NCBI RefSeq assembly: GCF_021535045.1
Contig: NZ_CP091056.1
Coordinates: 1,550,001 to 1,614,000 of the forward strand
DNA length: 64,000 nucleotides
DNA from: Ornithinimicrobium sp. INDO-MA30-4
Lineage (GTDB): Bacteria > Actinomycetota > Actinomycetes > Actinomycetales > Dermatophilaceae
Reading direction: 5' to 3'
Shown: positions 1,459-59,197 of the stretch, piece by piece
Numbering within the stretch: position 1 is the stretch's first letter
Layout of the letters: every line of letters starts with the position of its first letter
The notes under the pieces: generated by a model
Told to the model about the DNA's origin: nothing
Database searches by the model: none
The model's input: the letters and a program-made list of their open reading frames with translations, nothing else
Position numbers and translations under genes: made by a program

Positions 1459-3160
1459 TCAGCCGAGCTGAGCGGCAGAGCGCAGATCCGCGCGCCGTTG
1501 CCGGTGTTGCGCCGGGTCAACCGTGATCTCGATGACTCGAATGCCCGCTGCCTCCTGGGCCAAGGCTGCAGTGAGGTCAGCCACCGTGCCGACGCGCTGG
1601 TGCCGGGCACCATAGCCCGCGCACAGGGCGCTGAGTTTGGCCCCGGTTGGCGTGGCAAAGAGTCGCTGGAATGAGTCGTCTCGCGCCGCGCCATATTCGA
1701 GGGTGCTGAAGATGCCACCGCCATCATCGTTGAGCACCACGATCCTCAGGTCTGGGCGCGTTTCGGTTGGACCGATCAGCAGGCCATTGATGTCGTGCAG
1801 GAAGGTGAGATCGCCGAGCAGCAGCGTCGTCGGCGCCTTGGTGCTGAGCGCGATGCCAACAGCCGTGGAGGTTGTGCCGTCGATCCCGGCCAACCCGCGG
1901 TTGCCGACCACCGTCACAGATTCGGTATGCGGGGCGCGGGCGTAGTCCAAGTCACGGGCGGCGTTGCTTGAGCCCACGACGAGGATGCCGCCTTCGGGGA
2001 CAGCGTCGCGAGTGGCCGCAGCAATATCAACTCCGGTTGGACTGTGCGCGTCCGACACCGCCGTTGAGTCGGCCAGTCGGCGGGCGAGTCGATCGCCAGC
2101 CGATTGCCAGGCCTGTGCCCAGGCCACATCGACAGGCGCGGGCTCGGCAGCGAGCCAAGAGTTGAGCGCCGTGACCCGCTCAACCACATGGCCCGGGTCT
2201 GCCCAGGTGTTGGTGGCGCTCACGTGTTCGACCCGAATGTCGCTCCGGCGCGTCAGGGTGGCGATGTCGCGGCTGAGGGTGAGCCGCCCAACGGTGACGA
2301 CTCGGCGGGTGGGGTGGGCCTCAAGCAGCGACTCGTTGGCCAGCAACAGGCTGCCGTGCGGCAAAACTTCTCCGGGGTCCTGCCCCGAAGGGCTCGGCGA
2401 TGATCGGCCAGCCAGCCCGGGCGGCGTGCCTGACCACGCGAGCGACGTCGGCTGAGTCGGGCAGATCGCCCACGACCAGCAGAGTCTTGCTCTCCCTTTC
2501 GGGGCGTTTTGTCCGCTCAGGTGCCGAAGCGGCTGACTGCGCCACAGCGACCCATGGCTTTGATTCGGGCCGACCAGCAAAGTCCGACGGCAATTCACTG
2601 CCAGGCTGCGATGGCGAGAGCGGGTCAGCGAAACCAATGTTTAGGTGGACTGGGCCAGCCATCGTGCCGACTGAGCCGGTCGCGGCTGCGTAGCCACGGC
2701 AGATTGTGCTGCGCCACAGTGGCATTTCGCTGGCCTCGCCAACCGGGGCGGGCAGATCGAACTCATAGCGGACACAGCCGCCAAACATCCCCGGCTGCGT
2801 GGTTGTCTGGTTGGCCCCAGTCCCCCGCAGCTGAGCGGGTCTATCGGCAGACAAGACGATGAGCGGAACACCCGCGTGATCTGCCTCTAGGACGGCTGGG
2901 TGCAGATTGGCCACCGCCGTGCCTGACGTCATGATGACCGCGGCTGGAACTCGAGTGACCTTGGCCAGGCCGAGCGCCAGAAATCCCGCCGATCGCTCGT
3001 CGACGCGTACGTGAAGTTGCAGGCGACCTTGTCGCTCGGCCTGCTCCACCGCATACGCCAAGGGCGCGGAGCGCGACCCTGGGCTGAGCACGACGTGCCG
3101 AACGCCGCACCGGATCATCTCGTCGACGACGACGCTTGCCAACAGCTCAGCGGGATTCAC
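1459..3160 (-). CDS. menD: 2-succinyl-5-enolpyruvyl-6-hydroxy-3-cyclohexene-1-carboxylate synthase MenD
   Basis: About 567 residues, the normal MenD length. The thiamine-diphosphate enzyme joins 2-oxoglutarate to isochorismate in menaquinone synthesis. The N-terminus (RHVVLSPGSRSAPLAYA, then DERSAGFLALGLAK and TSGTAVANLHPAVLEA) is diagnostic of MenD. The C-terminal ThDP-binding half contains LLLGDLTFLHDINGL at about residue 450. The frame shifts once around 2340-2640, so the gene reads as two overlapping pieces. Because both halves are perfectly conserved, I take this as an assembly indel. The gene stands alone; no other men gene is visible. It converges on the Eis-like gene with adjacent stop codons. 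Confidence 0.93.
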
Positions 3161-3243
3161 GCCCCAATCCTGCCATTAGCGAAATACCCCTGCACTTGGC
3201 GCGAGGCACCAAGTGGGGACCCGGTCAAGATAGCCTAGGCAGA

Positions 3244-5470
3244 ATGCCCGACCAGCCCCGCTCCTTGCCGATGATCTGCGCGCTCGCAGCGATGCCGATC
3301 TGGCGATGTTGCTGGTCGCTCGGCCTGATTGGCCGCCCCACACCGACCGATGTCACGACGCTAGCGGCACGGGCGACGACCCGTTCCAGCGTGCAGCGTG
3401 CGCTGGACGCCCTCGACCTGGCACACCTGCATACCCTTGAAGCAGTTGTTGTGGGGCACCCGCCAGCCGCGCCGAAATCGCCCGCTTACTCGGCCAGCCA
3501 GTGCGCTCAGCCCTGGTCAAAAATGGTCACCGACTTAGCAACCTGGCGCTGACCTGGGAAAGCCCAGAGGGTATGCGGGTCCCGCGCACCGTCTCAGACG
3601 TGATCGGCGACCCGGCTGGCCTTGGCCCTGTGCTGCCCGATGTGCCCAAGCCCGCAGTGATCAAAGAAGCGCTAGGCGATGTCAACCGGCAAGGTCGCGC
3701 GTTGTTGGACGCGCTGACCTGGGGGCCAGCGACCGGGGTCTTGTCTGAAGCAGTGAGCAAGGGCGACACTGCGATTGGGTCAGCGGCCCGCAGCCTGATC
3801 CAGCAGGGGTTGCTGCATCGTGTCGACGCGTCACACGTCGTCCTGCCCCGCCAGGTTGGTTTGGTCCTGCGCGAGGGTCAACTTCACCAGCGCCCGTCTC
3901 TAGCCGCGAGTGAGGTAGAAGCAGCCGAGGTCGATGTCGACGTCGTGGATGCTACCGCTGGCGGGCGAGCCGCAGAGTTGCTGGTGCACAGCGCCGAACT
4001 GATCGACTTATGGGGCGCCGAGCCAGCGAAGGTGCTGCGCTCTGGCGGGCTATCGGTGCGTGACCTTGGCAAACTGGCCAACCACCTCGAGATGCCGGTT
4101 GACGAGACCGCTTGGCTGGTCGAGGTGATGCAGCATGCCGGCTTGATCGCCCGCGAGGACACCGACGATGCCACCTGGATGCCGACTGGTGAGGCTGACG
4201 ACTGGGTGGACCTGCCTCCCGCCCAGCGCTGGGCCGACCTAGCCAAAGCCTGGTGGACGATGCCTGCAGCCCCTCGCTCGTGGGACCTAGCGAGAGCGGT
4301 CGCATCAACGCCCTCAGCGTCAACACCTCTTGGCCAGCTGGACGCACTCGACGTCGGGATGTTTTGCACGCCCTGTCGACTCTGCCGATGGGCCAAGCCC
4401 CAGCGCCCGATGACCTCGTCGAATTGGTCCGCTGGCATCACCCCATCCGGATGGCCCGAGCCGGGGCGAGTGGCTCAACGCCCGGTGTCGATGTCGTGTT
4501 GCGCGAAGCCGAATGGGCTGGCGTGCTGGGGCGTGGAGCCTAGCACCGCTGGTCGCGCTCTGGTCAGCGGCGACTTTACGCAGGCTGGGTCCGCGATGGC
4601 CACGCACATCCCCGAGGCCGTCGACTATGTGCTGTTGCAGGCGGACCTCACGGCAATCGCCCCCGGCCGCCTCGATGGCCCCGCCCGTCAGGTGATGCGA
4701 TTGCTCGCCGACGTGGAGTCACGGGGTGGCGCCACCGTGCATCGGATCACCGAATCCAGCCTGCGCCGCGCGCTCGATTCCGGCTGGACAGCCGACCGAG
4801 TGATGACGGAGCTATCGGCGATCAGTCGCACCGGCATACCTCAGCCTTTGGAATATCTGGTGCGTGACATCTCCCGGCGCCATGGCGTGGCCCGGGTTGG
4901 TTCGTGCGCGGCCTATGTGCGCTCCGACGACGAGGCGTTGCTTGACCGACTGGAGGCTGACCGCGGCTTGAACCTGCTGCAGTTCCGCCGCATTGCCCCG
5001 ACTGTGGTGGTGACTCCTGTCCCAGCCACCACTGTTTTGGACCTGCTGCGCGAGCGCCAGTATGGGCCGGTCGCCGAAGGAGCTGATGGTGGAATCACCG
5101 TGGCCTCCGGTCGCCACCACCGCACTTCTCGTTCAGCGCGCCCCAGCATCGCTGCGGCGGGCGTCGATGCAGAAGTGGCGAGCCAAATCGTTGCTGTGAT
5201 GCGCAACGGCGAGACCGCTCGCCGCGCCGAAAGCGAGACGACGTGCCCACCAGCACTGACCCGGTCGTCACTCTTGCGCTGCTGCGCGAGGCCGCTGCGG
5301 AGGGGATGTCCGTCTGGATTGGCTATGTGGATGATGTGGGCGGAGTGCAGCGGACGCTGTTCCGACCGGCGCATGTTGAGGCTGGCCGAGTGCGTGGCAC
5401 GGTCGGCGATAGCGACGTCATGCGCACGCTGTTGTTGCACCGCATACGAGGTGCGCGTCCAGCTAAATAG
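3244..5470 (+). CDS. XPB-associated protein, Helicase_C_3 family (several assembly frameshifts)
   Basis: About 740 residues after joining. The start ATG 3244 opens MPDQPRSL, and the conserved N-terminus TLAARATTRSSVQRALDALD follows. The middle (residues about 90-400) carries winged-helix-like repeats such as TVSDVIGDPAGLGP and RVPRT. The C-terminal half contains IPQPLEYLVRDISRRHG and a WYL-like end (VWIGYVDDVGGVQRTLFRP). This is the actinobacterial family annotated as helicase-associated or XPB/Ssl2-like N-terminal domain, which commonly accompanies bacterial XPB; an xpb gene lies 11 kb downstream. It lacks Walker motifs, so it is not itself a helicase. Frame changes occur near 3270, 3345, 3500, 4290, 4540 and 5240. 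Confidence 0.75.
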
Positions 5471-5542
5471 CATCCACCGCAGCCAATCCACTTGTCTGTG
5501 ATTGGCCCTCCCAAAACGCGTTTCAGGCGCTAAGTTCCCTTT

Positions 5543-6914
5543 ATGGTGAACCCTGAAACCGCCTCAAAAATCCTGCTCGATGAGTCAGAGATGCCCACGC
5601 AGTGGTACAACATCGTGGCTGATTTGCCGGTGCCACCACCGCCCGCGCTGCACCCTGGCACTCATGAGCCCGCCGGCCCAGAAGACTTCGCGCCGCTCTT
5701 TCCGATGGCCCTGATTGAGCAAGAGGTCTCGACCGAGCGCTACATCGATATCCCCGGTGGCGTGTTGGACGTCTACAAACTGTGGCGCCCCAGCCCGCTC
5801 TATCGGGCCCGCCGCTTGGAAAAGTTGCTCGACACCCCCGCCAAGATCTACTACAAGTACGAAGGCGTCAGCCCGTCGGGGTCGCACAAGACCAACACCT
5901 CGGTGCCGCAGGCCTACTACAACCACCAAGAAGGCATCACCAAGCTGACCACCGAGACTGGCGCCGGCCAGTGGGGCAGCGCCCTGGCGTTTGCCACGGC
6001 GCAATACGGCATGGAGTGCGAGGTATGGCAGGTCGCCGCTTCGTATCGAGCCAAGCCCTATCGCCGGACCATGATGGAGATCTGGGGTGCCAGCGTGCAC
6101 GCCAGCCCCTCGGAGTTGACCGAGTTCGGTCGCAAATTGCTCGCCGAAAACCCCGACCACCCCGGCTCGTTGGGCATTGCGATCTCTGAGGCAGTGAGTG
6201 AGGCCGTCGCTGACCCCAAGACGCGGTATGCGCTGGGCTCCGTCCTCAACCACGTGCTCCTCCACCAAACCATCATTGGTGAGGAGGCCTTGCTGCAGTT
6301 GGCCAAGGTGGGTGATGTCCCCGATGTGTTGGTGGGCTGCACGGGTGGTGGGTCGAACTTTGGCGGCTTGGCTTCTCCCGTTCTTGCGGGAAAAGTTGGC
6401 CGGCAAGATGAACCCGACGATTCGCTGTGTTGAGCCTGCCGCGTGTCCGAGCCTGACCAAGGGCGAATACCGCTACGACTTTGGCGACACGGCTGGCCTG
6501 ACCCCGCTGATGAAGATGCACACGCTGGGTCACGACTTCGTGCCGGAGCCGATTCACGCCGGTGGTTTGCGCTATCACGGGATGAGCCCGTTGGTGTCGC
6601 ACATTTATGACCAAGGCTTGGTCGAAGCAATCTCGATCCCGCAGACCGAGTGCTTCGCAGGCGCGATTCAGTTTGCTCGCGCTGAGGGAATCGTGCCGGC
6701 CCTGGAGCCGACCCACGCCATCGCCGCTGCCGTGCGAGAAGCATTGGCAGCCAAGGAGGCTGGCGAAGAGCGAGTCATTTTGACGGCCCTGTGCGGTCAC
6801 GGCCACCTGGATCTTGCGTCATACGAGACCTACTTGGCTGGCACGATGACGGACCTCGATCTCTCCGATGACGCGATCGCCGAAGCGATGAAGTCGGTGC
6901 CGGTCCTGGGCTGA
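5543..6914 (+). CDS. trpB2: TrpB2-type tryptophan synthase beta chain-like PLP enzyme
   Basis: About 457 residues, longer than canonical TrpB and typical of the TrpB2 class. The PLP lysine lies in PSGSHKTN (about residue 115), and the phosphate-binding loop is [10 protein letters not shown] (about residue 269). The N-terminal region [19 protein letters not shown] is diagnostic of TrpB2. The family makes tryptophan from indole and serine (or phosphoserine) and often does not pair with TrpA. No trpA or other trp gene is nearby, which fits an indole-salvage role (inference). One frame change near 6390-6415 splits the C-terminal third; the continuation ...[14 protein letters not shown] is conserved. 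Confidence 0.9.
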
Positions 6915-42497: not shown

Positions 42498-42804
42498 GCT
42501 CTGTTGTTTCTGTTCGTCGCTTACTTCGATCTGTAGAAGTTATAAGGACCGTGATCAAGCGACGGAAAAAGCGCTTCAGCGGTCATCCTCGGCGGACGTG
42601 TTCCCCGGAAGACCTCAGCAGGCGATGAGTTTTGACTGCGAGACCGTCTATTCGAGCACCGGCAACAAGCTAAGTGGCCTCCCCCGATAACGCGGTGCGA
42701 TTCGAAGCGCGTGACGTGTGCCGTAGTCGGTTTGAGCATTCCGGGTTTGTATGTCACGGGAGACGCGGGCACCCGATTACGCGTGGAGTTAAGTCACGAA
42801 GAGA
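42498..42804. other. Gene-free gap between alditol oxidase and defence operon
   Basis: I see no supportable gene in these 307 bases. Short open frames on both strands have no recognisable motif and no convincing ribosome-binding site. The composition is less GC-rich at its left end. It is the downstream boundary of the defence operon. Confidence 0.5.
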
Positions 42805-45046
42805 TCAGTCACTCAGCATCGATGACTTCTGCCCCGACCACGAGATCGCCAGCACATCCCGGGCTCGGCTAGCCGCAACATAGAGCAACGAACGCTCTCG
42901 CAACAGCGCATCCTGCAGGTCAGCCTCGCTGAAGTCATACTTTTTGACCCCCGAGGGCAGCGAGCCGTCACGGACACCAAACAGCAGCACCCGCGCAAAC
43001 TCAGTGCCTTTGGCTCGGTGCATCGTCATGGCCACGGGGCTTCCTGCCCGGATGGCGTCCCGGTCAACGGGCCGCACGTCGATGCCGCGCTCCTCGAGTC
43101 CGTTGACCACGCGCTCGCGCTGATACTGGTCACGCACCAGCACCGCGACGGTCTCGGGAGCCGAAGCCACATCAGGATCAGCCAGCCAACCCTTGAGCAG
43201 TTCAGCTGCCTGGTCTAGTTCGTCGGTCATTGACCCGCAGGCCAACTCCACCGGCACCGGGCCAGAGCGAGCCGAGCGATAGGTGTCATGTGACTCACTG
43301 TCGCCGTCGATGTCGCTAAAGCTCGAGCCATCGAGCACGCTCATCGCCCATCGCAGATTTTGCGCCGTCGTCCGATAGTTCAGCGTTAGCCTGCGCGACT
43401 TCCCCTGAGTTTGGATGCCCAAGTGCGACAGGGTGATCTTTTGCCCATAGATGCGCTGGTGGGAGTCTTCGGCGATAAACAGATCATTCGGCCCCGGCGC
43501 GACCAGAGCACGCAAGAACTGCCACCGGGTGGCCACCAGGTCTTGGCCCTCATCGACCAAGACATGATCGGCAAGCCGCGAACCGGTCTCGGCCTCAATA
43601 TCCAGGTGCTCAGCCGCGATGGCTGCGGCCTCTTCAAAGTCAATCGTCCCTCGGGCACGGCTCGAGGCTCGATAACTCTCGATCACCGCCCAGACGGCCA
43701 CTCGCTGCCCGCGGGAGAGCGCAACGCCCCGCCCGCGTCGTGGCGCACGGAAGTAGGCCGTCTCGGTTTTCACCCGTCGTGGCAACACCACAGCTCCATA
43801 TTCGGCAGCGAAGAACGCAGCACTTCTGAGCTTGTCCGGCAGCTCTTGACCTGCCGCTTCGATGGCTTCGTCCCACGCCTGGTTGTCGGTGCGCTGCAAC
43901 ACCTGAGTGGTGCCATAGCCCAGCACTGCTTCGCTGGCCGTGGCGATACCCGCACCCGCTTGGGCGAGCACCGCACGGATCAGCGCATCGACACCATCAA
44001 TCCGCAGACCCGGCTCCCCCAACCGCTTGGCTAAGGCGACGTCTGGGTCCAGTCGCACGATGTCTCGTTGCAGGCTCGCCGCCAAGTTGGTGGTGTAGGT
44101 CGTCAGCACCACTCGTGGGCTGCCTGCCTCCTTGGCCAGTCGGCGGGCTCGGTGCAGTGCGACCACCGTCTTGCCGGTGCCTGCACCGCCCGTGATTTTG
44201 CTAGCCCCGGAGAAGTCTCGCTCCACAAACTTGGCTTGCAGCGGGTGCAAGAAAGTGCGCCAGGCAGCAAACTCTGACTCCTCGATAGCCCGCCGCAACT
44301 CTTCGTTGTCTTCGATCCAGGCGAACGTGAGCTGGCTCGCCGGGTGCTCCAGACCTCGCAGGAGTTGTTCGTCTTCAGTGCCGCTTTCGTCAACAGGGCG
44401 ATCAAGGCCATAGATCGACTTCACTTCTTCGATGGGCTTGCCCGCTGAGAGATCAATCAAGGCCAGCCCTTGCCACTCGATTGAGCAGCGCTCCACCAAG
44501 GCCATCAGCGCCGCCTCATCCGAGACAGTCATGGCTGCGCGGGCAAACTCTTCATCCAGGCCAAGTTTGATCAGCTTTTCAGCATCGAGGCCATAGTGCT
44601 CCAACAGCCCCGGCCCGGCAGTCACCTCAGGCTGCGTTGATGCTGCCGTAGGTGTTGGCGTTGGCGTCGACGAGCCAGCAGCTGCCTCAGCTGAGGCCTC
44701 AGCCACGGCTGCGAGCGCCTCGGAGTCAACGGAGGTCTTGATTTCGGCGATACCGGTCAGTGGGTTGACCGTCAGCATGACCGACTCGGCAATGCGGTTG
44801 GCCACATCGTGCTTCCAGAAGCCGTGCATGACATAGGTGACGCTGCCTTCAGCAGTCACCTTGAACATCACGGCACGAAAGTTGTCATCGACTCTGCCGG
44901 TGCGCACCCGAGAGTCTTGGGCGCCCACGATGGGCTCAATGTGCAGCCCGGGTGCGGTGTCGTCGGTCTGCAACTTCTCCATGAAGGTGTAGGCCTTGGC
45001 CTTGATCGACTTGTCGATCTTTTTGCTGCAAAAAGATGCCCGCCAT
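42805..45046 (-). CDS. UvrD-like helicase with ParE/RelE-like N-terminal region (defence operon gene 4)
   Basis: About 747 residues. Residues 1-95 (AGLHIEPI-type strand, RVRTGRVDDNFRAVMFKV, VTYVMHGFWKHDVA) have the compact beta pattern of ParE/RelE-type toxins, which is inference. A linker rich in S/T/P (SSTPTPTPTAAS) follows. The SF1 motor has SKITGGAGTGKTVVALHRAR (motif I), DHVLVDEGQDL (II), LTLNYRTTAQNLRWA (IV-like), VAMTMHRAKGTEFARVLLFG (V) and LLYVAASRARDVL (VI). The start ATG at 45046 shares one base with the previous stop (TAATG); an indel near 45020 separates it from the main frame. It is the last gene of the four-gene operon. Confidence 0.82.
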
Positions 45047-48000
45047 TAGCGCTCTCCCACCTGTTGCAATGCCTGACTAATCAATTCTGGGGTCGGCCCG
45101 AGCACGTGCCAGTCGGCAGCCGCCAACTCGGTCTCCAACTCTGCGTCGGCCTCCAGCAGCACCACGACCCGCGCGTCTTCCCAGACAAAATCGCCCACCT
45201 GCCCATCCAACACCTCAGCACCGACAATGGGCACGGGCACACCGAGCGCGGCCAACTGGCCAGCCAGCGAGCGCTCGGCCAGCGTCATGTGCTCAGCCAC
45301 TTCGTCCCAGGCCGCCGGCAACCGAGGCTCATCGGGCTCTGCCTCCGCCCGCTCTCGGCGATGACCAGCGACCGTGCGGTGATCTCAACGCCCAACTGGG
45401 CCGCCGTCATCACGTTGCTCAGGGCAAGCCATTCCAACCAGTCGTCGTGGTGGCTGGTGGTGTCGAGCGCCTCGGGGCGATCATCAATCATCACTACGGT
45501 GCGCGGCACCGAGCCGGCAAAGTCGACGAGGGCCACGACGTGCCCGTGGCGCCACAGCGCGGCCTGCTTGCTGCCGCCCAGAGTTTCCCCGTCCAGCACA
45601 TCGGCAGCCACCTGGGCCAGTGGTGCCTCATCCGAAATCAAGACACTGTGAGCCTCGCGGAACATCATCAGCCCCACCGATTCAGCCAACTCACGCCGAG
45701 GGCCGCGCTCCTCGGGTCGCAGCATCCGGCCCAACAACATCTCAATCGGCCCAAGGCGTGCGGTGTCCACCACCTTTGGGTCAGGCCAGAGCCCGGAACT
45801 CCGGCAGGCAGGCCCATCAGGGTGGCAACCGCGTCTTGGCGCAGCCAGGTCAGGTCACGAGGCGGCCCAGACAAGTCAGCATGGGTGACCGCGAAAACTT
45901 CAACACCTTGATCGCGCAGGGCGGCCCGTTTGACGGAGTCATCGGCAATCCGGTTCTTAGCACCCACCCCTGCGTGGAAGGCGTGACCATCCACAAAAAT
46001 CGCTATGCTGGGCCCGTTGCCAACCTCGGGCTCCAGGACAAAGTCCGGTTTGCTGCCATGCATCAACACTTGCGGCCGCAGCGTCCACGCGCGGTTGTGA
46101 TCGACGCCGCGCACCTTGATGGTGTTGCCAGTCGGGCCGGGTTGCTCAGTGATGATCGCCCCGACACGGGCGACCGCATCCTTGAAGGCTTGCCGGAACT
46201 GCAACTCCAGGGGCGACTCGCTCGCTTCCTGCTGCACCGGGCCATCTTCAATCGGCCAGGGCATCAGCTCGGGGTCAACATCCTGCACCGACTGATCCTC
46301 GGCCAGGGCCAGGATCTCGCGCAGGTGTCGCTCGGCCGAGACCCGAGAGAGCCGGTCGGCACCAAACCCTCGCGAGTAGGGCAGCAGGCACCGATAGCAA
46401 GCCAGTCGCCCTTCGTCGCGGCATGGGCACTGCGCAATCGTTTGGTATGCCAGGGCCAGCAGCCGCCACACCCGCTCGGGCTGTGCCAGGTCGGCTAAGT
46501 AGCCGGTGCCACCGGGGACCATGTCGTGAATCAACAAGACATCGCGCACATCACCGGGGCCGCCCTCTGGCACTGGGGCTGGCACGATCTCGACTTGCAG
46601 GTGGTCTGGCTCGCCGCCGATCTCTTCGCGCAGCCCCAGCAGCAAGGCAGCAGCCAGGCTCGGCAGGCCAAAGTCGTCGCCCAGCTCTGCCGATTGCGGC
46701 AGGGTGACCACGACCGCTTGAGTGCGCAGGTGCCGGCTGAGGGCAATTGACCTGGTGTCTTCGCTGTTGGAGCCACGGTGGCGACACCAGGGCCGGTGCT
46801 CGTTGCGGGTGTTGTGCCCAGCCGTGTTGTCGAGTTTGCCGCAGCCCGCGCAGACACGAAAGAGCGGAGCCGAAACATCTCGCCCAGCGACCCGGCCCGA
46901 GTTGATCGCGCCGTGACTGGCTGGCCCCAAGTTGAGCCATCGCAGGTCGGCTTTGCGGTGGTGGGCTACGCCAAAGTCGACACCCGCGACCTTCCACTGC
47001 CGGTCGATCGTCATGGGGTCGAGGTCGGCCGCAGTGATGATGGTGAAGGCTTTGTTGTCGCGTTCGTCTTTGCCATCTGTGATGAGGTCTCGGTCGCGGC
47101 GCACTTCGGAGTGCACGTGCGACATACGCACAACATTGAGGTGTTGACTGGTGTCAGCGATGGCCCCACTGCCACACCGTGGGCATTGCGCCAGGGCGGT
47201 TTCTGTCTGCTCACCAAAGCCGCACTCGGAGCAAAAGACCCAGGGGTGAATGTCGGCCCCGTCTTGGCCCAGGTCAACGCCGTCGATCTTCATCGCCAAA
47301 CTGCGGGTATAGAACGTTGCACCCGGTGCCAACTCGCGGAGGGCTTGAGCCGAGTCGCGGCGCACCGTGCGTGAGTCTGACTCGAATCGGCCTGAGTCGG
47401 GGTCCACCCAGGTCACTCGGGCTTCGAGGGTGACGATGTCGTCGAGCAGGGTGTAGTTGGGCAGGATGCCGCGTTCTTCCAGGCTGGCGACCCAGTGTTG
47501 GGTGCGCAGGGTCGACAACTCCCCTCGCGTGAGTTTGAGGGTGGCTTCGGCGGTGCGGAAGTCGCGCCGGTCATCTTCGGTGGCTGCGGGGCTTTCGGCA
47601 GCGGCGCGCAGGCCCGGCAGCACCTCTTCGACTTCGCGCTGACGGCGTTGCAGTGTCTCGATGACCTGGTTCCAGTCTTGGCTGGCCCGATGCACCAGGG
47701 CAGGCAGGCTGTCGTCGAGGTCGTCGGTGGTCAGCGCCCAGCGCCGCAGATCCTCCACGACAGCGGGGTCGAGAGTGGCAAAACCAGCGAGGAAGCGGTC
47801 TAGATGCGACTCGCCGCGAGCGCTGCCTTGGCTGATGACTTCGCCCAAAAAGTGTCCTGCGCCGATGACTTCAACGCCCGCTCAGAGCGTGCGGGCATGA
47901 CATCGGGGCTGTTGCGGGCCACGTCATCAATCACTGCCGCCAAATATTGCCGGCGCAAGATCTCGGCTGCATCCAAGTAGGTCGCTGGTGGCCGCACCTC

Positions 48001-51000
48001 GCCGTTGATCACCGACAGCGGGTTGCCGAGCCGGGGCAGCTGGTCGCCACGACCTCGCACGAAGGCCAAGTTCAGGGAGTTGCCGGTCAGTCGGCCGGCG
48101 CGCCCGATGCGCTGTAAATAGCTGGCCACGGATTCGGGAAGCGAGGCCAGAATGACGCTAGACAGGTCACCAATGTCAATGCCCATCTCCAGCGTCGGGG
48201 TAGCAACCAGCACGTTGGGGGCATCGGGAGAGGGCAGAGCTGCTTTGAAGCCGTCTTCGACTGCCCGCCGGTCGACGTCTTCGAGCAGGCTGGTGTGCTC
48301 GCGGGCGACCACCCGGCGCATGTCGGCTGAGCCATAGAGGCGTCGATAAAAGTTGTCGTCGCGCGGCGTCGCCAGCAGCTGCCCGGCGCAGCGAGCCACC
48401 AGACAGGGCCGCCAGCCAGTTGTCCAACCACGGTTGGTGTTGCTGGCACGTGGTCGCGGCATAGGTCGCACACCAGCAGCGTCTGCCCGGCGGCGAGGTC
48501 TTGAGCATCAATGGCCTCAATCAGCACGGCGCTCTGACTGATGGCATAAACGTTGGCTTTGCTCTCGGTGACAAAGGAGCGCAACACGTCTTGCCGGGCC
48601 AAGGTGTGCAAGAGGTGTTCGGCAAGTTTGGCTCCGTGCGCGGTGTTGACGCCCAGCGTCTTCGCGCTCCATCGCGCATACCAAGACTGGGCCGAACGCA
48701 CCGAGTCGAGGTTGATGTCGCGGTCTTTGCGGCCAGCCAACGGCGCGCCGGCCCGCGGAAAGGCTGGCACGGAGCGACCGCTGGGGAAGGCTGGCATGCC
48801 CAGCCTTCTGCCTCCCCAGATCCAATGCCGTTTGCCGTCTTCGGTGATGTATCGGTCTAACCACTCGTGGTGGATGCCGCCGCGCTGTCGGATGTGCTCC
48901 AGGGTGCCGCGCACCCACTGGATGAGTTGTGCCTCGCTGGGCTCAACGCCTGGGAGTAAGTCGGTTTCGTCACGGTGCAAGGCCTGTTTGGCCAGGCTGA
49001 CCAAGCGCTGCGGGCCACCAGCATCGACAGAGACCGCGATGGAGCCGGTGGCCTCCAGTGTCCGGCCAAGGCCGACTGCAAACCGACCTCGAGGGAGGTG
49101 TCAAGCAGCAGTCGTTGTTTGACCAGTTTGCGGTGTCGCCCTCGACAGTGCGGACCGACTCATGCGACCAGAAGTTGTGGAATGCCTCTTGCTCCAACAT
49201 GTCTGGCGGCACCAGTCGATAGCGCTTAAACGCATCGCTGCCGGCATCGGCCAGCACGTCATCCACCAGGCTGTCGAGGGTGCTGGCGGCGCCGGTCAGT
49301 GCTGAGCGCAGCGCAGCACGCAAGGTCATGGAGTGTGACCGTGCTTGGACGAAACCGGCCCGGTGGGCGGCGTCTTGCACGGAGTCGGTGAAGACGAGCG
49401 ACTTCTTTTCGCGGGGTCCAGCGCGGGGTTGCCAAACATCACCGAGAGCGTCACCGACAGCAGGGTGGCCACGGCACTGCCCAGGAAGCGCACACCATCG
49501 GCTTGTTGGCACGAAGGGCAGGTGTCGGCCTTGGAGTACTGGTCGGCGTCCTGCCCGGTATGCGTCAGCACCGGCAGCAAGAGCCCCGCCAGCAGGTCGG
49601 GGTCGTCTTCAGCGGGCGGGTTGGCCAGCAGCGTGCTGCGTTTGACTGATAGCCACCGCAACCCAGCCACGGTGTCTTCGCGGGGCGAATCGGTGTTGCG
49701 TGCGCCTTCGCCGGGGGCGTGAAGCAGTGCGCGGAAGCGGCCTTCTTTGGCCATGTGGTTGCCACGGATGCGGGTGTCTTGGGCGGCTAGGTCGTCACCG
49801 ACGGCGGCCAGTTGGATGCCCCACCCCGAGCGACCACAGTGTCGGCAATAGATCGCCGGGAACGAGGCGTCGCTGCGCTCTCCTTCGCTGCCGACCCAGG
49901 CGCCGTCGTCGCTCCAGTGATAGGCCGGGACGCCTGCAGCCACCCGGTCGATGCGGGTGAGTTCGCGGATCCACAAGTTCAGCTCGACGCCCAGGGCATC
50001 ACGACCAGAGGTGGCTCGGATGTGGCTCAGGGCAGCAAGGAGGGCTTCTGGTGCGCCAACCCGCAGCGGCCCTTCGGCAGCGGTGGCTGGTCGGGCAAAG
50101 AGCGCGGTCAGTGCATCGTCGTAGGTCGCGGCTCGCTTGGTCACCTCGATCAGACCCTGAATGTCGGGGTGCTTTTGATCAGGTCTAGCGGCTCAAACTG
50201 CTCGATCGACTCGGTGTGCAGGCAGGCCAACACAGCCCCCGTCAGGGCTGCCGGGTCGTCAGCGTGGTCGCTGGCAGCGGCAGCCACCTGGCTCAACTGC
50301 TCACCGGACATCTCACGTAGGCGAGAGGGCGCGGGAGCCTGGGCACCATCGCTCCACTGTGCCCAACTCTGCCGGGTCTCGGTGATCACCGCATCGGGAG
50401 CAATCTCTTCGCCAAAGACGGTGTGCGCAAACGCCAACATCGCTGAGGCGTCGGTGTCGTCACCCAGGGTTGCTGATGTCGCGACGGGGGTCATTTTGCC
50501 CATCGGTCGCGCTCGGTCGGCAGGACTGATCTCGGGGTGCTCATCGGGCCAGTGGCTTTTGAGAGCGATGCCAAGGCGTCGCAGCAACATCGCCACGTCT
50601 GTGCCTTGAGCCCCGTCGTAAGTGTGGAACTCATCAAGCACCAGATAGGTCAACGACAGTGCGCTTTGCGCCCAGATCGACTGATCATCGGGGCGCAGCA
50701 GCAGTTGGTCGAGCATCTTGTAGTTGGTGAGCAAAATGTCGGGTGCCTGATCGCGCATGGCATGGCGGCTCGTGATCAGACCCCTGGACGAAACTCGCGT
50801 ATCTTCGCGGGTTTGACCACCGGTATAGATGCCAGCCGTGACACCAGCCAAAGCTGGGTCGGTGGTCAGCAGTTCGGTCAGCCGCCCGGCCTGGTCGTCG
50901 GCAAGGGCGTTCATCGGATAGAGGATGAGCGCCTTGGTGCCGGTCACACCAGCACGTTTGGCACGCAGCACATGGTCCAAAATCGGGTGCAAAAACGACT

Positions 51001-51346
51001 CGGTCTTGCCCGAACCGGTGCCGGTAGTGACCAAGGTGGGCTCGGGCCGGGTGCCTTGATCGAATCGCCCCTTGGTGGTTAACCGTTCATAGGCTTGTGC
51101 CTGGTGGCGGTAGGGCGTGAACTCAGGCAACCAGTCGAGGCTCGATTGCCACCCGGCATCGGCGGGCCGAAACGGCAATCGAAGCCGCAGGTAGGGCCCC
51201 TTGAAGATGCCGTCGCTCTCATCGTCAAGGAACTCGCGCAGCGCTCGCCGCGGCTCTGGGTCCACCAGCGCAAAGGTCGTTGTCAGGTAGTCAACAAGCC
51301 CTTCGCGCAGATCACGGGCTTGCAGCGAAGGCAGCAGCTCACTCAT
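45046..51346 (-). CDS. Giant DEAD/DEAH helicase with zinc clusters, DUF1998 and nuclease-like region (defence operon gene 3)
   Basis: About 2100 residues after joining. SF2 motor 1: [17 protein letters not shown] (motif I, about residue 115), [14 protein letters not shown] (II, about 235), ATSATLGDD (III). Cysteine pairs [10 protein letters not shown] (about 499) and CPSCQQADG (about 609) follow. Motor 2: [15 protein letters not shown] and [10 protein letters not shown] (about 1050-1085). Then come [11 protein letters not shown]...[17 protein letters not shown], and the DUF1998-type [14 protein letters not shown] with [18 protein letters not shown] (about 1650). Residues about 1740-1830 ([42 protein letters not shown]) look like a PD-(D/E)XK nuclease. 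A last 200-residue region follows. Frame changes near 50150, 49410, 49090, 48430, 47830, 45770 and 45330. Confidence 0.82.
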
Positions 51347-54300
51347 GAGTCAGCCAAACGACGCTCAAACTCGGCGTATGCGGTGCGCAGGTCAGCCTCC
51401 CGGTCCAGCGTGCTAAACGGCAACTCGTAGACGTAGTCGTGGCCCTCAGTGTGGGTGGCTGTGCGTTCGTCCACGCTGATTGCGTCACCCTTTTTGCGCC
51501 ACACTGCCAACACGCTGTTGGGCACCAACCGGCCGTTGATGTCGTAGGTGTAATCGCGCTGGTCATAGCCATGCAGCACAGCAAATTGAGTGCGATAGAT
51601 GGTCACAAGGTCATCAATGGGCACATCTAGCATCAACGCAACCAGAGCATCGTTCTCCACCAGAGCGTTGCGGCGATCCACTGCCCGGCGCAACGGCGTC
51701 TGCGCCGTCCACTCTGGCCCGATCTGGCCGGGGTCGTGTTGGGTCAATATCGGGGCGTCGTCGAGGAAGGCGTCATCCCAACACTGCGCCCACAGGTCGG
51801 CGTAGGCATCGGTGAGGCAGTTCAGCCGAAGGGCCCGAAGAAGCAACGAATTGATTAGTGGATGATCAAGGGACACCATTGGCAGGCTCGCGAACACTCC
51901 CTTTAAGATCGCCGATTTTGGCGCTGCCCGGACTTGAAAATCATGCAACAGGCTCGTGGCTGACGCAGCGACACTCATCAGCGTGCGCAGGTCTGCATCA
52001 CCTCCCCCGACGCAATACAAGGTGTACAGGTGAGCACTCGTTGGGGGGATTACCGCGGATATCAGCGTTCGCTCCCCCGTATTTGCCGCCATCGCCCGCC
52101 AAGCCACGCGGTAGTGATCCCGGGCAGAGCTCGACCTATCTGGGCCCCAATGGGTGTATTTGGCGTTGTAGGCCACCGGGTCGCCCGTTGGCTTGTAGGC
52201 CGTGACTGGCATGGTGTCTGGCGCCAACCGCTCCAAATCCACCGCCGACCAGTCTTGGTTGTGCTTCATCGTGGCGTTTGGTGACTTGTAGAACGGGGTA
52301 CTGACATGCAGATGTGGGCCCTGCAAGATCGCGTCCTGCCAAACTGCAGGGCCCCAAGAGCCCTTGAACCGGCCAGCTTGACGATCGGTCTTCTCGTTCC
52401 AGCCTGCTGAAAAATCCAGGCCAAGTTTTCCGACGCGCGGCGCTGCTGACAACGTTTCCAGAGTCCGCAAGGCTGCTTCGTTCACGGTGTAGACCATCCG
52501 AGTTTGTGCCGGGTTGTCGTCTTCAAGCACATCGGCCCAGACGGCCAACGTCTCGTCGGTGACCGACTGGATGCGTGACTGGTGGGGGCGCAAGTCCCAT
52601 TTGCCCTCGTGCTTGAAACCCGGTTGTTCCCCGGAGCCGTCATGCACCCGAGAACGGGTCACTGTGTCGGGGTGAAACAGCCCCGCCGCATTGTCGAAGG
52701 CCACCTCGTCGTGACCCGCGTAGCCGTAGACGTGAACGCCGTAGGAAACGTGATGGTCTATCTCAAAGAGAACCAACTCATTAATGAACTGCCAATGGCG
52801 GGCCAATTGCCGGTAGGTCTGGGCCCGCAGCAGCCCGGCCCGCTCATCGGTCAGATGTGTCTCAGGGTGGATCAAACCGGAAACACCCTGAGCCGAGGCG
52901 TGGGCCCAGACTTGGCTCATAAAACAGCGGTAGAGGTCTGGACGCAGCCCAGCCAACAGCGGATAGGTCGAAGCGCCACTGACGAACTCGCGCAGTGACA
53001 CCACATCGCCGGTCGCACTCAACACCAAGGCTTCAACCCCAGGCACCGCCAGGTCGTCGCCGTCATGTCGTTGCGGGCTGCCTCCGACGGCTTCTCCGCG
53101 AGTTGCCACCACGGGTCGCCCTCAGCAAGCAAGGCATCGCTATCAACGTCGGGCCGCACCCACGGCGGGTTACCCACCTGCAGGTCAAAGCCGCCTTGGG
53201 CAAAGACTGTGGCAAAGTCCAACTCCCAGTGGAAAAAACCTTGTTGGCTGGCGATCTGCTCACACACCACGAGCCACGGGTGCGCCTCCAAGACTTCGTG
53301 GGCACGCTTAGAGCCGCTATAGATCCGGTCGTCATCCTCAGCGTCACCCAGTTGGAACCAGTCGGTCAGATCCTGGAACGTCTGCTGACCGGCCCGAGTT
53401 TTGGCCCGGTTGCTGGTGTCGCGCCCCAGCAACATCGTCAGCCCGTCGAGCCATTCATCGATGCTCGGCGGCTCAACCTGAGTTTCGGTGAGCGGCCAAA
53501 ACCACAACGCGCACCAGGCATCCATCACGCGCCGCAACCGGCGATACGCCCCGTCGGGATCGGCCAGGGCCTCTTCGATCTGCTCCCGAGTGACCGCCGA
53601 AGACTCAGCCGGCTCCTCCCGGCCCCACAAGTGCAGGCTACGGCTCGACTCTTGCTCAGCGATCTGCAATCGGCGAAGCGCCAAATCCCACAACTGCTCC
53701 ACCCTCTGGGTCAGCCCCATCAAGGTGTCGACCTGGGTCTTAGTCAGTTTGCGTTTGGTCTGCGAGCGCCACGCCTTCAGCGCAGCCACTTGCTCGGGCA
53801 CCAAGTCGCGGACCTGTTTGGGCACCTCGACCGCTGAGCCCCAACCGGACGCAGGCAACAAAACTGGAATGCCGAAGACGACACCGCCGGGCCCACTTTG
53901 CCGACCTTGGCATCAGCCAACAGCGCAGTGAGCGGCACATCCTTGGGCGCTGCGCTCAGGTAACTCTTGTCGTTGACCGCGTGCCGCGCATACGTTGCTC
54001 GTCGTGCCCCGACCAGGGAGTTGCCGCGACGCAGCCGCAAACCAAACCACGGCGCTTGCAAACCACGCACCATGGTGTCCAACCAGAGCGAGACTTCGGC
54101 CAACTCCACAGCGGTGGCATTCAGGTCAACGCCGTACACCTGGTGCAAAGCGATGTGGGCCTTGACCCGCTGCAACTGGGTTGGGAAGTCATCGGGGTCA
54201 ATCCGCTCGCCCACCTCCTCCTGGCGACGACGCAGATATTTGCGGGCCAGTTGATCGACCGCTTCCAACGCAAGGCACCCGAGCCCAAAGCGGGCTCACA

Positions 54301-55962
54301 AACACTCAACTCAAGAATCTCGGCGGCAGTCGTGCTCTGGCCGTCTTGGTCCAGCAACTCCTCAAGGGCTTCGCTGACGGTGAACCGAGTCAACACCTCG
54401 GGGTGTAATACGACGCCGACTGCTGGCGCTCCCGGCCAGCCAGTCGGAAAACAAAGGCGCCCTGTTGGTGGCGGACAGGCTGAGACTCCCCGTTTCGGGG
54501 TCTTCGACGCGGACGAAGTCCTTTTCATCCAGGTGGTCGGCTCGAGTGACCGGCACCACCCAGGAGCCCTTGGTGGCATCGCCAGCCTTGGCCACTTCAA
54601 AGAGGTCTTCATCGGCAAAGAAGCCGGTGTAGGACATCAGGCCTTCATAGACCGAGCCCAGTTGGTTGATGCCCAACTCGACATAGGAGATAAACCCGCG
54701 GTCGCGGCCCTTGGCCTCTTTGCTCAGCAGCAAGTGCTGCAACACCCGCTGGACGGCTTCATTGCCCAGCTTGACCTCATCGATCAGCGCCGTGGCCTCG
54801 GGTCGGAACAAGTCAGCGCGCAAGGGGTCAAACGTGAGCGCGTCGCTGCTGGCGTGGTTGGTTTGCCCGTGAGGGTGATGCCCCTGGTCGATCAGGCGTG
54901 AGAGTTGGTGCAGCGAGGCGTACAGGTGCGTGCCGTGGTGGGAGCTCTCCTGTTGCAACTCCACCAGGGTCAACTCGCGCAGTCGGTCAATGCCATAGCC
55001 GGCGTCGTATTCACTGGCGCCGGTGGGCAGCACCCCAGCTCAGGTGAGGCTTCGGCATACAGCAAAAACAGGATGCGATAGAGGTAGCGCAACGATTGCA
55101 CGGCCAACACCTGGGCCTGGTCTTGCGGCAACGGCGGCAAACCTTGAGCGGCACGCCGGTTCACGACCTCATCAGCGACGATCTCCACTGATCGGCGCAC
55201 CCCTTCGCGCAGGTCTTCGGAGACCCCGACCGTGTGCTTGACCGAGTCAGCCAGCACATCGCTCCACCAGATATTGCCATCGGCATCGGGGGCCAGAGAG
55301 GCCGCGTCAAGGCAAGCCAAAGCCCGGTCCAACTCGCCACCGCGCTTGGTGTCGTTGCGCTCGGTGACCAGTTGCAGGTCAACCCCGAGATAGCGGCCCT
55401 CGGGCCAGCGCTCTTGCTCAGCGATCAGGCACCAGCGGCCAGCCAACACCAGGGCAAACTGTGGAGCCTCATCGCTGACAAACAGGGCGGAGAGTTGGCG
55501 AGCGACCGAGGTAATGATGCTGCCATCGGGCTGCTCGACGGGCTCAGCCAGCGTTTTTGCGTCTTTGTCGATGAGGTCATCAAGAGCAGTGACCGGGGTC
55601 GCCTGGATCAGCACCAGTGGGGCCGGGCCGGTGACGCCCACGGTGGAGACCCTGGTCAGGGGACCATCGGCGTCCAAGGTGAATTCGCCGGTGTGATAAC
55701 CCAGCACGTCAAGCAGGTCGTGGGTGAAAGCACGGGCTGCCGCCGGGTCGCTCTGGCCCTCTTCGGTCAGGCCACCCACCCGACGCTCCAGGTCGGCGCG
55801 GCTTGCGGTGAAGCGAGAACGGGTGGTCTCGGCTTCTTCGGCGTCCCAGGCTTTGCGGCGAGCAAGGACCCGGCCATGGAAGGACTCGTTGCGAGCTTCA
55901 CTGGTGAAGTAGTGCTCGCTGATCCAATCTTCGCCAACGACGAAGGCATCATTGCTGGCCAT
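51343..55962 (-). CDS. Eco57I/DrmMI-like N6-adenine DNA methyltransferase (defence operon gene 2)
   Basis: About 1540 residues. An N-terminal helical region of about 500 residues precedes the methylase. The AdoMet motif I is CEPALGSGAF (about residue 557, after an indel at 54270), and VYGVDLNATAVELAEVSLWL is motif II/III. The catalytic motif is LQVGNPPWVRPD (NPPW, about residue 932). The C-terminal about 500 residues look like target recognition (HVSTPFYKSPN, AYKPTGD, YRVAWRAMAANTGERTLISA). It would mark self DNA at adenines. Its stop overlaps the giant helicase start by four bases (ATGA). Frame changes near 55030, 54400, 54270, 53850 and 53080. Confidence 0.85.
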
Positions 55963-55963
55963 G

Positions 55964-58809
55964 TCAGGCCTCCTGAACCGGGTGGTTGTGGGGGACGACG
56001 ACGAGGAGCGGGCGGATAAAGGGCGATCCGGTGATCGCTCATCGGCCAGTTGTTGCTCTTCCTCAACGGTCGCTCGACGATCGCGCAGGTTGAGGCGCTG
56101 GCTGATGGCATCTGCCTGTTCGCTCCAGGTCTGCGCGCGCTGCCACCAGCGGCCACATGGGCTTCCGCTTGCTGGCGGGCAGCGGCAAAGGCAGGCTTGA
56201 GGGCTTCATCGGCTTGGGCCACGGCTGCCGGCATCAGGGCATTGAGCGCTGAAGCGTCGGCAATCGGGCCGGGGTTGCTGATGCCGCGTTTGATGCCCAC
56301 CGAGTCGAGCAGTTCTTCTGCTGTGCGGTGTTGCGCCACCAAGGCAAAACTGGGTTGGCCCGTGGGGAACTCCACGGCCAACCACGACGAAGTCACCGTG
56401 TGACCCGAGCGGTTGGTCAACGACCCCAGCAACAGCACGGTCGGCGCGTCAACATCACCACGGACCGCGAAAACTTGGTTGCGGCCCAGGTGCGCCAAGG
56501 CTCGGTCGCTGACCCATTCCAAGATCGGGTGCAACGGCCCCAGGAAGTGCGCTTCTGGCCAGGATGAGCCGGACTCATCGGCGAGCGCATTGCGCCGCAA
56601 GGTCTCGCCCTTGGTCTTGGTGGTGGCCAACTTGAAGGTTTCGGTCACCTGGCGATCCCGCAGGTAAGACTGCGGCAACACGTTGAGTCGTTTGCGCAGG
56701 TCGCTAGGTGGCGACATCTGCACAATCTGGTCAGTGGCATATTCGCGCCAGTTGACGCCACCGCCCAGTGCGCTCAGCGGTTGTTGTGGCTCGCTGTAGA
56801 CCTCGACCAGGGCTTCGCGCAGGTAGTCGGCGCGATCGGCATACAAAGTGGTGGTTTCGGTGGTTTCGGGTGCTTCTTCTTCTGCGGGCAAGGACTGCAT
56901 TCGAGCAAAGAGGGCAGCGAGGTCGTTGCCTTGCTGCACCTGCCCCACTTCCTTGACCACATCATCGAGTTGCTTGCGGCCAGCCAACACGTCGCGGATG
57001 CGGTCTTCTTCGGCCTTGACGTCGTGCTCGCCCATCAGGCCAGCGACGTCGCCCAGGGCGGTGTGGGCTTCATGCTCTTTTTCGACCAAGCGAGTGAGCA
57101 CCTTGAGGTCACCGGAGAAGCGGTCGTGGGTGGGCTCCAACACCAAGGTGGTGATTTGCGGCTGGTGACGCTGGCCATACCGGTCGATGCGGCCGTTGCG
57201 CTGTTCCAGGCGGATGAGGGACCAGGGATGTCGTAGTGCACGAGCTCATGGCATTGCAGGTGCAAGTTGACGCCCTCAGAGGCAACGTCGCCGGTGATCA
57301 GGATGCGGATCGGCGACGACTCTTGTTTGAAGCTCTCAACAACCTCTTGCTGCTCCTGGTCAGAGAGCTGGCCTTGCAGGATCGCGACGGCGTCATCGGG
57401 CAGTTTGAACTCTTTGGTCAGGCGAGCGGCCAGCCAGTCGAGGGTGGCGATGCGCTCGGCAAAGATGACCACCCGCTCCGGTTTGTTGCGGCCGATGCCG
57501 ATCTTTTTGAGGTAATCAACCAGGGCGCCATATTTGCCGCCCCGCTCGGCCAAAGATCGCTCGTTGAGGTGTTGCAGATCACGCAACGCTTCGATCTCGA
57601 CGGCTTCGGTGACGAGGGTGGGGTCGAGGCGATTGATGCGCTGCTTCAGGGTGGCCTGCAGCGCGGCCGGCGAAGACAAGAAGGCCTTGGCCAAGGTCCA
57701 CGAAAATAGGCGGGAGTTGCCGGAGTGGGGGCTGCTGCCTTGCGGGTGCAGCCAGCGGTCGGCCAACTCGTGGGCCACGGCGTCTTCGGCCGGATCGGGG
57801 CGACCGGGATGTTTTGCGGGGTCTTGCGCTCAGCCCAATCGTTGCCGACCACCCTGGCCACCTCGGGGCTGTGCCGGTGACGGCGCAACACCAGGCGCTG
57901 GACCTCTTCTTCGATGACGGTGCCATCGGGTCGCACCGCGGTGGGCTCGAGCAGACGGATCAACTCGGCGAACGACTCGGCCTTGCCGTTGTGCGGGGTG
58001 GCTGAGGCGAGGATCAAGGCGTCCGTCTGCGGAGCGAGGACACTGGCCAGCCGGTTGTTTTGGGTGGCGTTGTTGGTGACGTTGTGTGATTCGTCGATGA
58101 CGACGGCATCCCAACGGTGCTTGCGCAGGTGGGACAAATAGCGGTCGCTCTTGAGGGTGTCGATGGAGATGATGGCCCGCTTGTAGAGCGAGAACGGGTT
58201 GCGGGTCGACGGCAGTTGCTGCCGGACCCGCTGAATGCCGACGGAGTCAAGGCGGACAAACGGCAACGCGAACCGAATCCACATCTCCTGCTGCATCTGC
58301 TCCAAGACGTGTCGGGGCGTGACGATCAGGATGCGCTCGCCCCGGCCACGGCGGACCAACTCAGCCAGGATCATGCCGATTTCGAGGGTCTTGCCGAGAC
58401 CGACAGCATCGGCCAGCAAGATGCGCGGGCGCAGGTTGGCCGGGTCGAGAGCGCGGCGGACGGCCTCTTGTTGATAGTCCAACGGGTCGGCCAGTGCTTC
58501 ACCAGACACAGTGATCGACTGGTCATCGACCGGCAACGGAGTCTTGCGCAAGGTGGCTTCGAGCCAGAGCAGCGCACGGCGATTGCCGGGCGAATCGTCG
58601 CCAACCACCGTGGCAGCAGCCGGGTCGAGGACCTCAATGTCGTCAAGGCCCTGGTAGAACATCGCCGAGGTGTCTTTCACCAACTCGGATAGCCCACGGA
58701 CCGAAACTAAAGCCCCATCGCTGGTCTGTTCAACGCTCGTGACCAGCCATTCCTCATCACGCACGACAACGATTGAGCCGGGCGCGACCGCCAGTGTGGA
58801 TTCCGACAT
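55964..58809 (-). CDS. SNF2-type helicase, DrmD-like (defence operon gene 1)
   Basis: About 948 residues. DPLDYQQEAVRRAL (Q motif), RILLADAVGLGKTLEIGMIL (I), WDAVVIDESHNV (II, DESH), ALILASATPHNGKAESFAE (III), VVIFAERIATLDWLAARL (IV), ILITGDVASEGVNLHLQCHE (V) and, after an indel at 57225, IRLEQRNGRIDRYGQ (VI). The DESH box and spacing are those of bacterial SNF2/RapA-like proteins such as DISARM DrmD. A C-terminal alpha-helical region of about 400 residues follows. Frame changes near 57790, 57225, 56150 and 56020. The stop is one base from the methyltransferase ATG (TGACATG). First gene of the operon. Confidence 0.87.
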
Positions 58810-58834
58810 CTATGTCCTCAAGTCCCCGATTGGT

Positions 58835-58848
58835 GTTGAAGTTTCAAC
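58835..58848. promoter_or_regulatory. Short palindrome in the defence operon promoter gap
   Basis: GTTGAA-GT-TTCAAC is a perfect dyad of six-base arms 25 bases upstream of the SNF2 helicase start, in the 130-base gap to the divergent small gene. It is a candidate operator controlling either direction. Confidence 0.35.
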
Positions 58849-58939
58849 CCTAACTGAGGGCGCGTCGACCGGCAGAGCATGGCACGTGTGCCTCGGCTCT
58901 GACACAGTGGCACCGCACCCGCCCCTTGAAGGAGCCCCA

Positions 58940-59197
58940 ATGGCCAAGGTCCGCAATTTATCGCCCGGAACGCAACGCGTGGACGTGCACCCCACCGAAG
59001 TGGATGCCTTCTACCAGGTCGTGGAGGCCGAGGACGGCACAAAGTATCTCCACATTTCAACATTCGGGTCTGATTCGAGGAAGTCAGCACCAAAGATGAG
59101 CCAAGCCATACAACTGGACGCTCAAACAGCCCGTGAACTCGTGGCCGTGATTCAGGACGCTTTCTGGTCATCGGGAGCGAAGCCCGGTAGCTCTTAA
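58940..59197 (+). CDS. Small conserved protein of unknown function
   Basis: 85 residues, uninterrupted, with GAAGGAG upstream of ATG 58940. It reads MAKVRNLSPGTQRVDVHPTE, then a strand-turn pattern YLHISTFGSDSRKSAPKMSQ and a closing helix ARELVAVIQDAF. I recall similar small actinobacterial proteins sometimes carrying the label methionyl-tRNA formyltransferase, but no formyltransferase motif is present and the length is far too short. It diverges from the defence operon and is followed after 27 bases by the molybdate operon. It could be an accessory of either or independent. Confidence 0.7.
   Translation: MAKVRNLSPGTQRVDVHPTEVDAFYQVVEAEDGTKYLHISTFGSDSRKSAPKMSQAIQLDAQTARELVAVIQDAFWSSGAKPGSS

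Follow-up and report, generated by a model that had tools for sequence, protein, structure and literature searches.

The window examined here is a 64,000-nucleotide stretch of Ornithinimicrobium sp. INDO-MA30-4 (contig NZ_CP091056.1, positions 1,550,001 to 1,614,000). It contains a minus-strand operon at 42805-58809 whose four genes encode an SNF2 helicase, a methylase with an NPPW motif, a giant zinc-binding SF2 helicase whose C-terminal part looks like a nuclease, and a UvrD helicase. The operon is almost certainly an ARMADA Type II system, armA-armB-armC-armD. This four-gene anti-phage immune system has already been named and tested by others, in Escherichia coli NCTC 12900 and ATCC 8739 (Bell et al. 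2025, PMC12458937; this paper and the two further ones cited below are drawn on from excerpts), and the operon described here is a new example of it. As defined there, ArmA is BrxHII/RapA-like and ArmB PglX-like; they are followed by ArmC, which resembles YprA, has a Vsr nuclease at its C-terminus and in many cases additional inactivated nuclease domains, and by the product of the usual fourth gene, ArmD, which is GajB-like with a RelE-like N-terminus. A BrxA-like insert after RecA1, together with MarR-like and coiled-coil inserts, also belongs to the ArmC of ARMADA II. ArmA and ArmB are common to DISARM class 1, and ArmC is nearer to Druantia DruE (PMC12458937). Three things are new here: an actinobacterial example of ARMADA II whose empty site is precisely defined, the inability of an older profile library to name the system, and the occurrence of its RelE-UvrD protein next to McrBC and to type III genes.

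The four genes were compared with the PADLOC 2.0.0 (2023) profile library, whose matches are quoted from among those listed, and with Pfam. Two pieces of armA matched DrmD (PDLC02621) with 149 and 94 bits; BrxHI was matched with 114 bits, and in Pfam SNF2 (4e-15) and Helicase_C were found. For the intact ArmA of a congener DrmD was the best PADLOC model (305.8 bits), and the BrxHI and BrxHII models were matched as well. Tested as a BrxHII/RapA-like SNF2 helicase, ArmA was found to be one. The pieces of armB matched REase_MTase_IIG (PDLC03611) colinearly, and the congener ArmB did so over its full length with 1507.8 bits, with a further match to DrmMI (180.1 bits). A Pfam match to Eco57I (4.1e-6) and the NPPW motif agree with a PglX-like methylase; the PADLOC label is Type IIG, and the likeness to PglX is the wording of PMC12458937.

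The N-terminal piece of armC matched DruE3 (PDLC00037) with 171.1 bits as against 34.2 bits for DrmA, and DruE3 was also the best PADLOC family of the congener ArmC (273.8 bits). Pfam DEAD, Helicase_C and MZB/DUF1998 domains were found, with four CxxC pairs in the same open reading frame (ORF) as the MZB domain; in the intact congener locus L022 all three domains lie on a single ORF of 2115 residues, which places the zinc domain on the ArmC chain. The claim of an earlier note on this DNA that a nuclease-like region is tied to the giant helicase was judged right, and the nuclease is probably of Vsr type: a Vsr-type fold is predicted from a congener protein and its motifs are kept in 9 aligned relatives, while the Pfam match of this region is weak (PF18741 REase, E 0.0044, under the cut-off). 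The armD product matched Pfam UvrD_C (3.5e-18) and UvrD-helicase (7.8e-15), and the congener ArmD matched C3a187/GajB in PADLOC (99.1/92.4 bits), as befits a GajB-like UvrD helicase. In an alignment of ArmD N-termini seven residues were invariant in 13 rows, with H-D present in 13/13. RelE-family matches of the ARMADA members are weak; ArmD is linked to ordinary RelE toxins by a bridging homologue, L060, which passes the ParE cut-off and aligns with the profile at E 0.001, with a probability of 21%. The L060 gene (L060:9419-11530, on a Pseudanabaena plasmid) encodes a UvrD helicase with an N-terminal ParE/RelE domain above the Pfam cut-off, and adjoins a gene for a YprA-like helicase.

The window genes stand on one strand in the strict order ArmA-ArmB-ArmC-ArmD. 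In a midpoint-rooted tree of 22 ArmC rows, which has five long branches and is not the published tree, both window ArmC pieces grouped with E. coli ARMADA II in a clade of 12 rows (100/100), and the rows of ARMADA-I type and of DruE III lay outside it. These row names were assigned in this analysis from gene order and neighbours in the records, and the tree omits the ArmC-like proteins of L017, L024 and L026, the Tsukamurella ArmC (two ORFs) and some plasmid matches. In L026, an operon on an E. coli plasmid, all eight residues mutated by Bell et al. are found at the same numbers.

Intact operons were found in 3 of 30 congeners (G029, G009 and G018), which are also the three with a full-length ArmD; counted from the first start codon, their armA to armD ORFs have 953-955, 1540-1605, 2115-2120 and 742-880 residues. 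A wider search covered 396 Actinomycetota genomes at E 1e-30, with at most 2 candidates per genome scored after the first look, so that weaker copies may be missed. ArmC was matched in 11 of these genomes; 8, among them the window's own, gave strong matches, and in the other 3 the match covered at most 320 N-terminal residues. All eight strong genomes carry A, B, C and D in order on one strand, contiguously in six; in G388 and G300 about 14 and 6.5 kb, respectively, lie between B and C, where the ORFs encode, among others, AAA proteins, a Type ISP methylase and a GmrSD-N protein. Of the 396 genomes, 9 gave a match to ArmB (the same eight and one weak), 19 to ArmA and 22 to ArmD. The earlier note had looked to conserved neighbourhoods in other actinobacteria, and the eight genomes and three congeners supply them. 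It had also stated that its reading would fall if all four genes belonged to an already named system of the same make-up: this is so in the literature (ARMADA II, in the excerpts of PMC12458937), but not in PADLOC 2.0.0, which gives them the four labels DrmD, Type IIG, DruE and GajB-like. Surveys with this widely used 2023 defence library will miss or misname ARMADA.

We consider it likely that ARMADA Type II, with the mechanism outlined here, is the best explanation of the operon as a whole; for the mechanism itself we incline, with more reserve, to methylation-guided, non-abortive restriction of phage DNA. The PglX-like methylase ArmB and the SNF2/RapA motor ArmA would tell host from incoming DNA, probably through self-marking by ArmB. 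The YprA-family helicase ArmC would then load on exposed single-stranded DNA, translocate with its OB-CON-DUF1998 canopy and make the cut through the Vsr-type nuclease at its C-terminus. ArmD, in which a UvrD motor bears a RelE-like domain, may finish the attack, with the exposed strand or its transcripts as the target that it unwinds or degrades. In E. coli ARMADA II, phage protection needs all four genes, mutants show that the Walker motifs and NPPW matter, and infected cells survive intact with no lysis (PMC12458937). DruE, a related YprA helicase, is reported to load on 3' single-stranded DNA and to work as a helicase-nuclease (PMC13192584). A 2026 review places ARMADA among the modification-based systems that restrict by unknown mechanisms (PMC12904381).

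It is unlikely, in our judgement, that ArmA to ArmC serve to sense and open the phage DNA and that the decisive blow falls on phage RNA, which the RelE-like domain of ArmD would cleave. In favour of this reading, the E. coli system needs ArmD (PMC12458937). The RelE-like N-terminus with its invariant H-D is also consistent with it, as is the company that the same protein keeps with other DNA-sensing systems. Against this, the RelE scores of ARMADA members are weak, RelE toxins normally require ribosomes, and the nuclease that ArmC appears to carry is of the DNA type.

That company was examined in 14 genomes with an ArmD-like but no ArmC match; several of these matches cover the helicase only, the G353 and G398 contigs do not extend far enough to reveal neighbouring genes, and the G158 contig breaks off at the gene. 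Outside ARMADA II, RelE-UvrD comes after McrB-McrC and after type III Res-Mod genes, and it occurs in ARMADA-I-like loci. In L053 McrB, McrC and RelE-UvrD stand in a row, and in L068 and L070 McrBC lies near the ArmD-like gene on the opposite strand (McrC, PF10117; McrB-like, AAA_5). Res (PF04851), Mod (PF01555; MTase_III, 1257.4 bits) and RelE-UvrD likewise follow one another in L054. The order in L072 is YprA-like, RelE-UvrD, ArmA-like, ArmB-like; in L069 a divergent ArmA-like gene adjoins the ArmD-like gene; L067 (G095) holds scattered short ArmA-, ArmB- and ArmD-like pieces, as if from a decayed ARMADA locus; and L073 has a weak McrB-like match. At 6 of the 14 loci none of the queried neighbours was nearby, two of the six being on short contigs. 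Plasmids contribute further cases, with McrBC in L028, with a type III system in L030, and directly after a YprA helicase in L061 (Thermus). The RelE-like N-terminus was seen by alignment or translation in L028, L030, L052, L053, L054 and L061. Because it is found with McrBC, type III and ARMADA-I-like loci, RelE-UvrD may be a portable module. The fuller proposal, that it is a portable effector or coupling module of ARMADA II, ARMADA-I-like, McrBC (Type IV) and type III restriction-modification systems, which differ in mechanism, and that it would tie DNA translocation to the cutting of nascent phage transcripts or R-loop RNA, is a speculative one and rather unlikely to hold in full. If true, DNA-sensing systems would gain an RNA-cutting arm; the sharing of RelE-UvrD with McrBC and type III systems offers a testable route to the role of ArmD.

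The reading of the operon as ARMADA Type II has to allow for its broken frames. The earlier note had described four minus-strand genes, with their domains and junctions; the Pfam domains were found, and all three minus-strand junctions read as given, TGACATG for A/B (55966-55960), ATGA for B/C (51346-51343) and TAATG for C/D (45048-45044). In the intact congener L022 the A/B junction is likewise TGACATG, and the other two are TTGATG and TGATG. When the four intact congener proteins were used in tblastn, each gene was covered nearly in full, at 45-87% identity per piece, a homology that by sequence comparison goes beyond chance. The UvrD gene alone keeps a single main open frame. Compared with the congener proteins, armA (5 tblastn pieces, 54-87% identity) shows 4 frame changes, armB 3, or 5 counting a 44-residue excursion, and armC 5, or 7 counting a 25-residue excursion. 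A further frame change seems to lie in armD just past the ATG of the TAATG junction (45046), because that ATG does not share the main UvrD reading frame, in which the first ATG is at 44982, with homology starting at 45024.

These 12 to 16 changes across armA to armC might be genuine and the system dead in its host; an unbroken rpoC in the same assembly is in keeping with such decay, which we nevertheless hold to be improbable. The rpoB gene of that assembly (G000:C1:1472377-1475685) is split across several frames in the same way, an identity of 45-87% is maintained through the breaks, and the catalytic motifs survive. The armA-C breaks are most likely, and most simply, put down to assembly indels, since rpoB is broken too; the assembly comprises 2.8 Mb in two contigs with a completeness rating of 74.86%. 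The split rpoB also means that the remaining broken ORFs of the window need cautious reading.

A BREX-like action, in which phage replication is blocked through methylation-guided recognition without DNA cutting and the nuclease parts are structural, is very unlikely. ArmA does match the BrxHI/BrxHII models, and ArmB is called PglX-like and survival without lysis is reported in PMC12458937, but the conservation of the Vsr-type motifs in 9 relatives speaks against it, as does the fact that no other BREX component was among the PADLOC matches listed for the operon ORFs (at most 25 families per list). It was rejected on these two grounds.

The positions of the features are collected in the table. 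The sister species G020 has an empty site, where 13 bases separate the counterparts of the left (84.5% identity) and right (73.2%) flanks of the operon, which means that 42500-59197 was either inserted here or deleted there. In G029 the operon is on contig C2, whereas the best matches of the two flanking genes are on C6 and C12, which speaks for movement between sites. Among 5,426 complete E. coli genomes, the L026 operon is matched in 527, and at least 80% of it is present in 513. On one E. coli chromosome (L065) the operon adjoins Zorya II and a likely Druantia III; an array of ARMADA II with these two systems is already in PMC12458937. A Tsukamurella plasmid (L027, 1-23851) carries an ARMADA II operon immediately preceded by a helicase gene and a DUF1998 gene, a DISARM-like pair; the annotation splits the ArmC of this operon into two genes, and its ArmD is followed by an additional UvrD gene. 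In L026 a DruE-like ORF of 1160 residues (2066-5548) stands just before armA (upstream of 5772), perhaps a shortened Druantia III neighbour. The 85-residue ORF at the edge of the insertion in the window had no Pfam match at E 0.05 and no relative among the compared loci.

Table. Features of the ARMADA Type II operon and the inserted stretch (window coordinates)
Feature	Position	Strand	Basis
armA, BrxHII/RapA-like SNF2 helicase, frame-broken	55964..58809	-	PADLOC, Pfam, tblastn
armA ORF pieces	57646-58809, 57035-57778, 55767-57146	-	
armA Walker A GLGKT	about 58387-58401	-	
armB, PglX-like adenine methylase, frame-broken	51343..55962	-	PADLOC REase_MTase_IIG, NPPW
armB NPPW	about 53160-53171	-	
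armC, YprA-family SF2 helicase-nuclease, frame-broken	45046..51346	-	DruE3, Pfam, tree
armC Walker A GSGKT	about 51002-51016	-	
ArmC MZB/DUF1998 zinc-binding domain	46385..46657	-	PF09369, E 2.1e-10
ArmC probable Vsr-type (PD-(D/E)xK) nuclease domain, most of it; motifs PDF, DGHAFH	45776..46171	-	translation, alignment, congener fold
Second nuclease-like domain, probably degraded, at ArmC C-terminus	45052..45321	-	
armD, RelE-like domain fused to GajB-like UvrD helicase	42805..45046	-	Pfam
armD main ORF (homology from 45024)	42805-44982	-	
ArmD RelE-like N-terminal domain; invariant G, R, R, H-D, A, A positions	44675..45024	-	alignment, translation
16.7-kb stretch, replaced by 13 bases in sister species G020	42500..59197	.	
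85-residue ORF, divergent from armA, inside inserted stretch	58940..59197	+	

The suggestion of the earlier note that the operon is a class 1 DISARM variant which has a DrmA-DrmB fusion, lacks DrmC and has acquired UvrD is barely credible: DrmD is the best PADLOC model of ArmA and DrmMI is matched by ArmB, but the giant helicase scores far higher with DruE3 than with DrmA and groups with E. coli ARMADA II, its MZB domain is on the same chain, and the composition, with RelE-UvrD as the usual fourth gene, is that of ARMADA Type II (PMC12458937). What stands of the suggestion is an anti-phage operon of helicases and a methylase with kinship to class 1 DISARM, the shared parts being the SNF2 helicase and the methylase. 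In class 1 DISARM the DUF1998 part is a separate gene accompanied by a PLD nuclease (PMC12458937), whereas here DEAD, Helicase_C and MZB lie on one chain with a probable Vsr-type nuclease. The DISARM variant was rejected for want of separate DrmA and DrmB genes and of a PLD nuclease; no PLD match was found among the scanned operon ORFs in PADLOC or Pfam, and the four genes fill 42805-58809 of the insertion.

Druantia III shares DruE, the best PADLOC family for ArmC. It was rejected in turn, as no DruH was found beside the DruE-like gene among the PADLOC matches listed (we take STY4851-family proteins to be DruH), the insertion has no room for another large gene, and the DruE III rows stand apart in the tree. 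Gabija GajB differs in that ArmD has a RelE-like N-terminus and no GajA is among the PADLOC matches listed. ARMADA Type I has the YprA helicase, the BrxHII-like helicase and the PglX-like methylase in common with the operon, but its YprA gene usually comes first, its definition in the excerpts of PMC12458937 includes no RelE-UvrD gene, and its rows are placed apart in the tree. From the E. coli form of ARMADA Type II the operon differs as an actinobacterial branch (29-36% identity per protein between the congener operon and L026), in having no Zorya or Druantia neighbours, both of which are present in L065, and in its broken frames. With it ARMADA II gains a diverged actinobacterial branch that includes intact congener operons and has an exactly placed empty site. 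It has in common with the published system its gene order, the four families, NPPW, the Walker motifs, DUF1998/MZB and, probably, the Vsr-type C-terminus and the RelE-like part of the UvrD protein.

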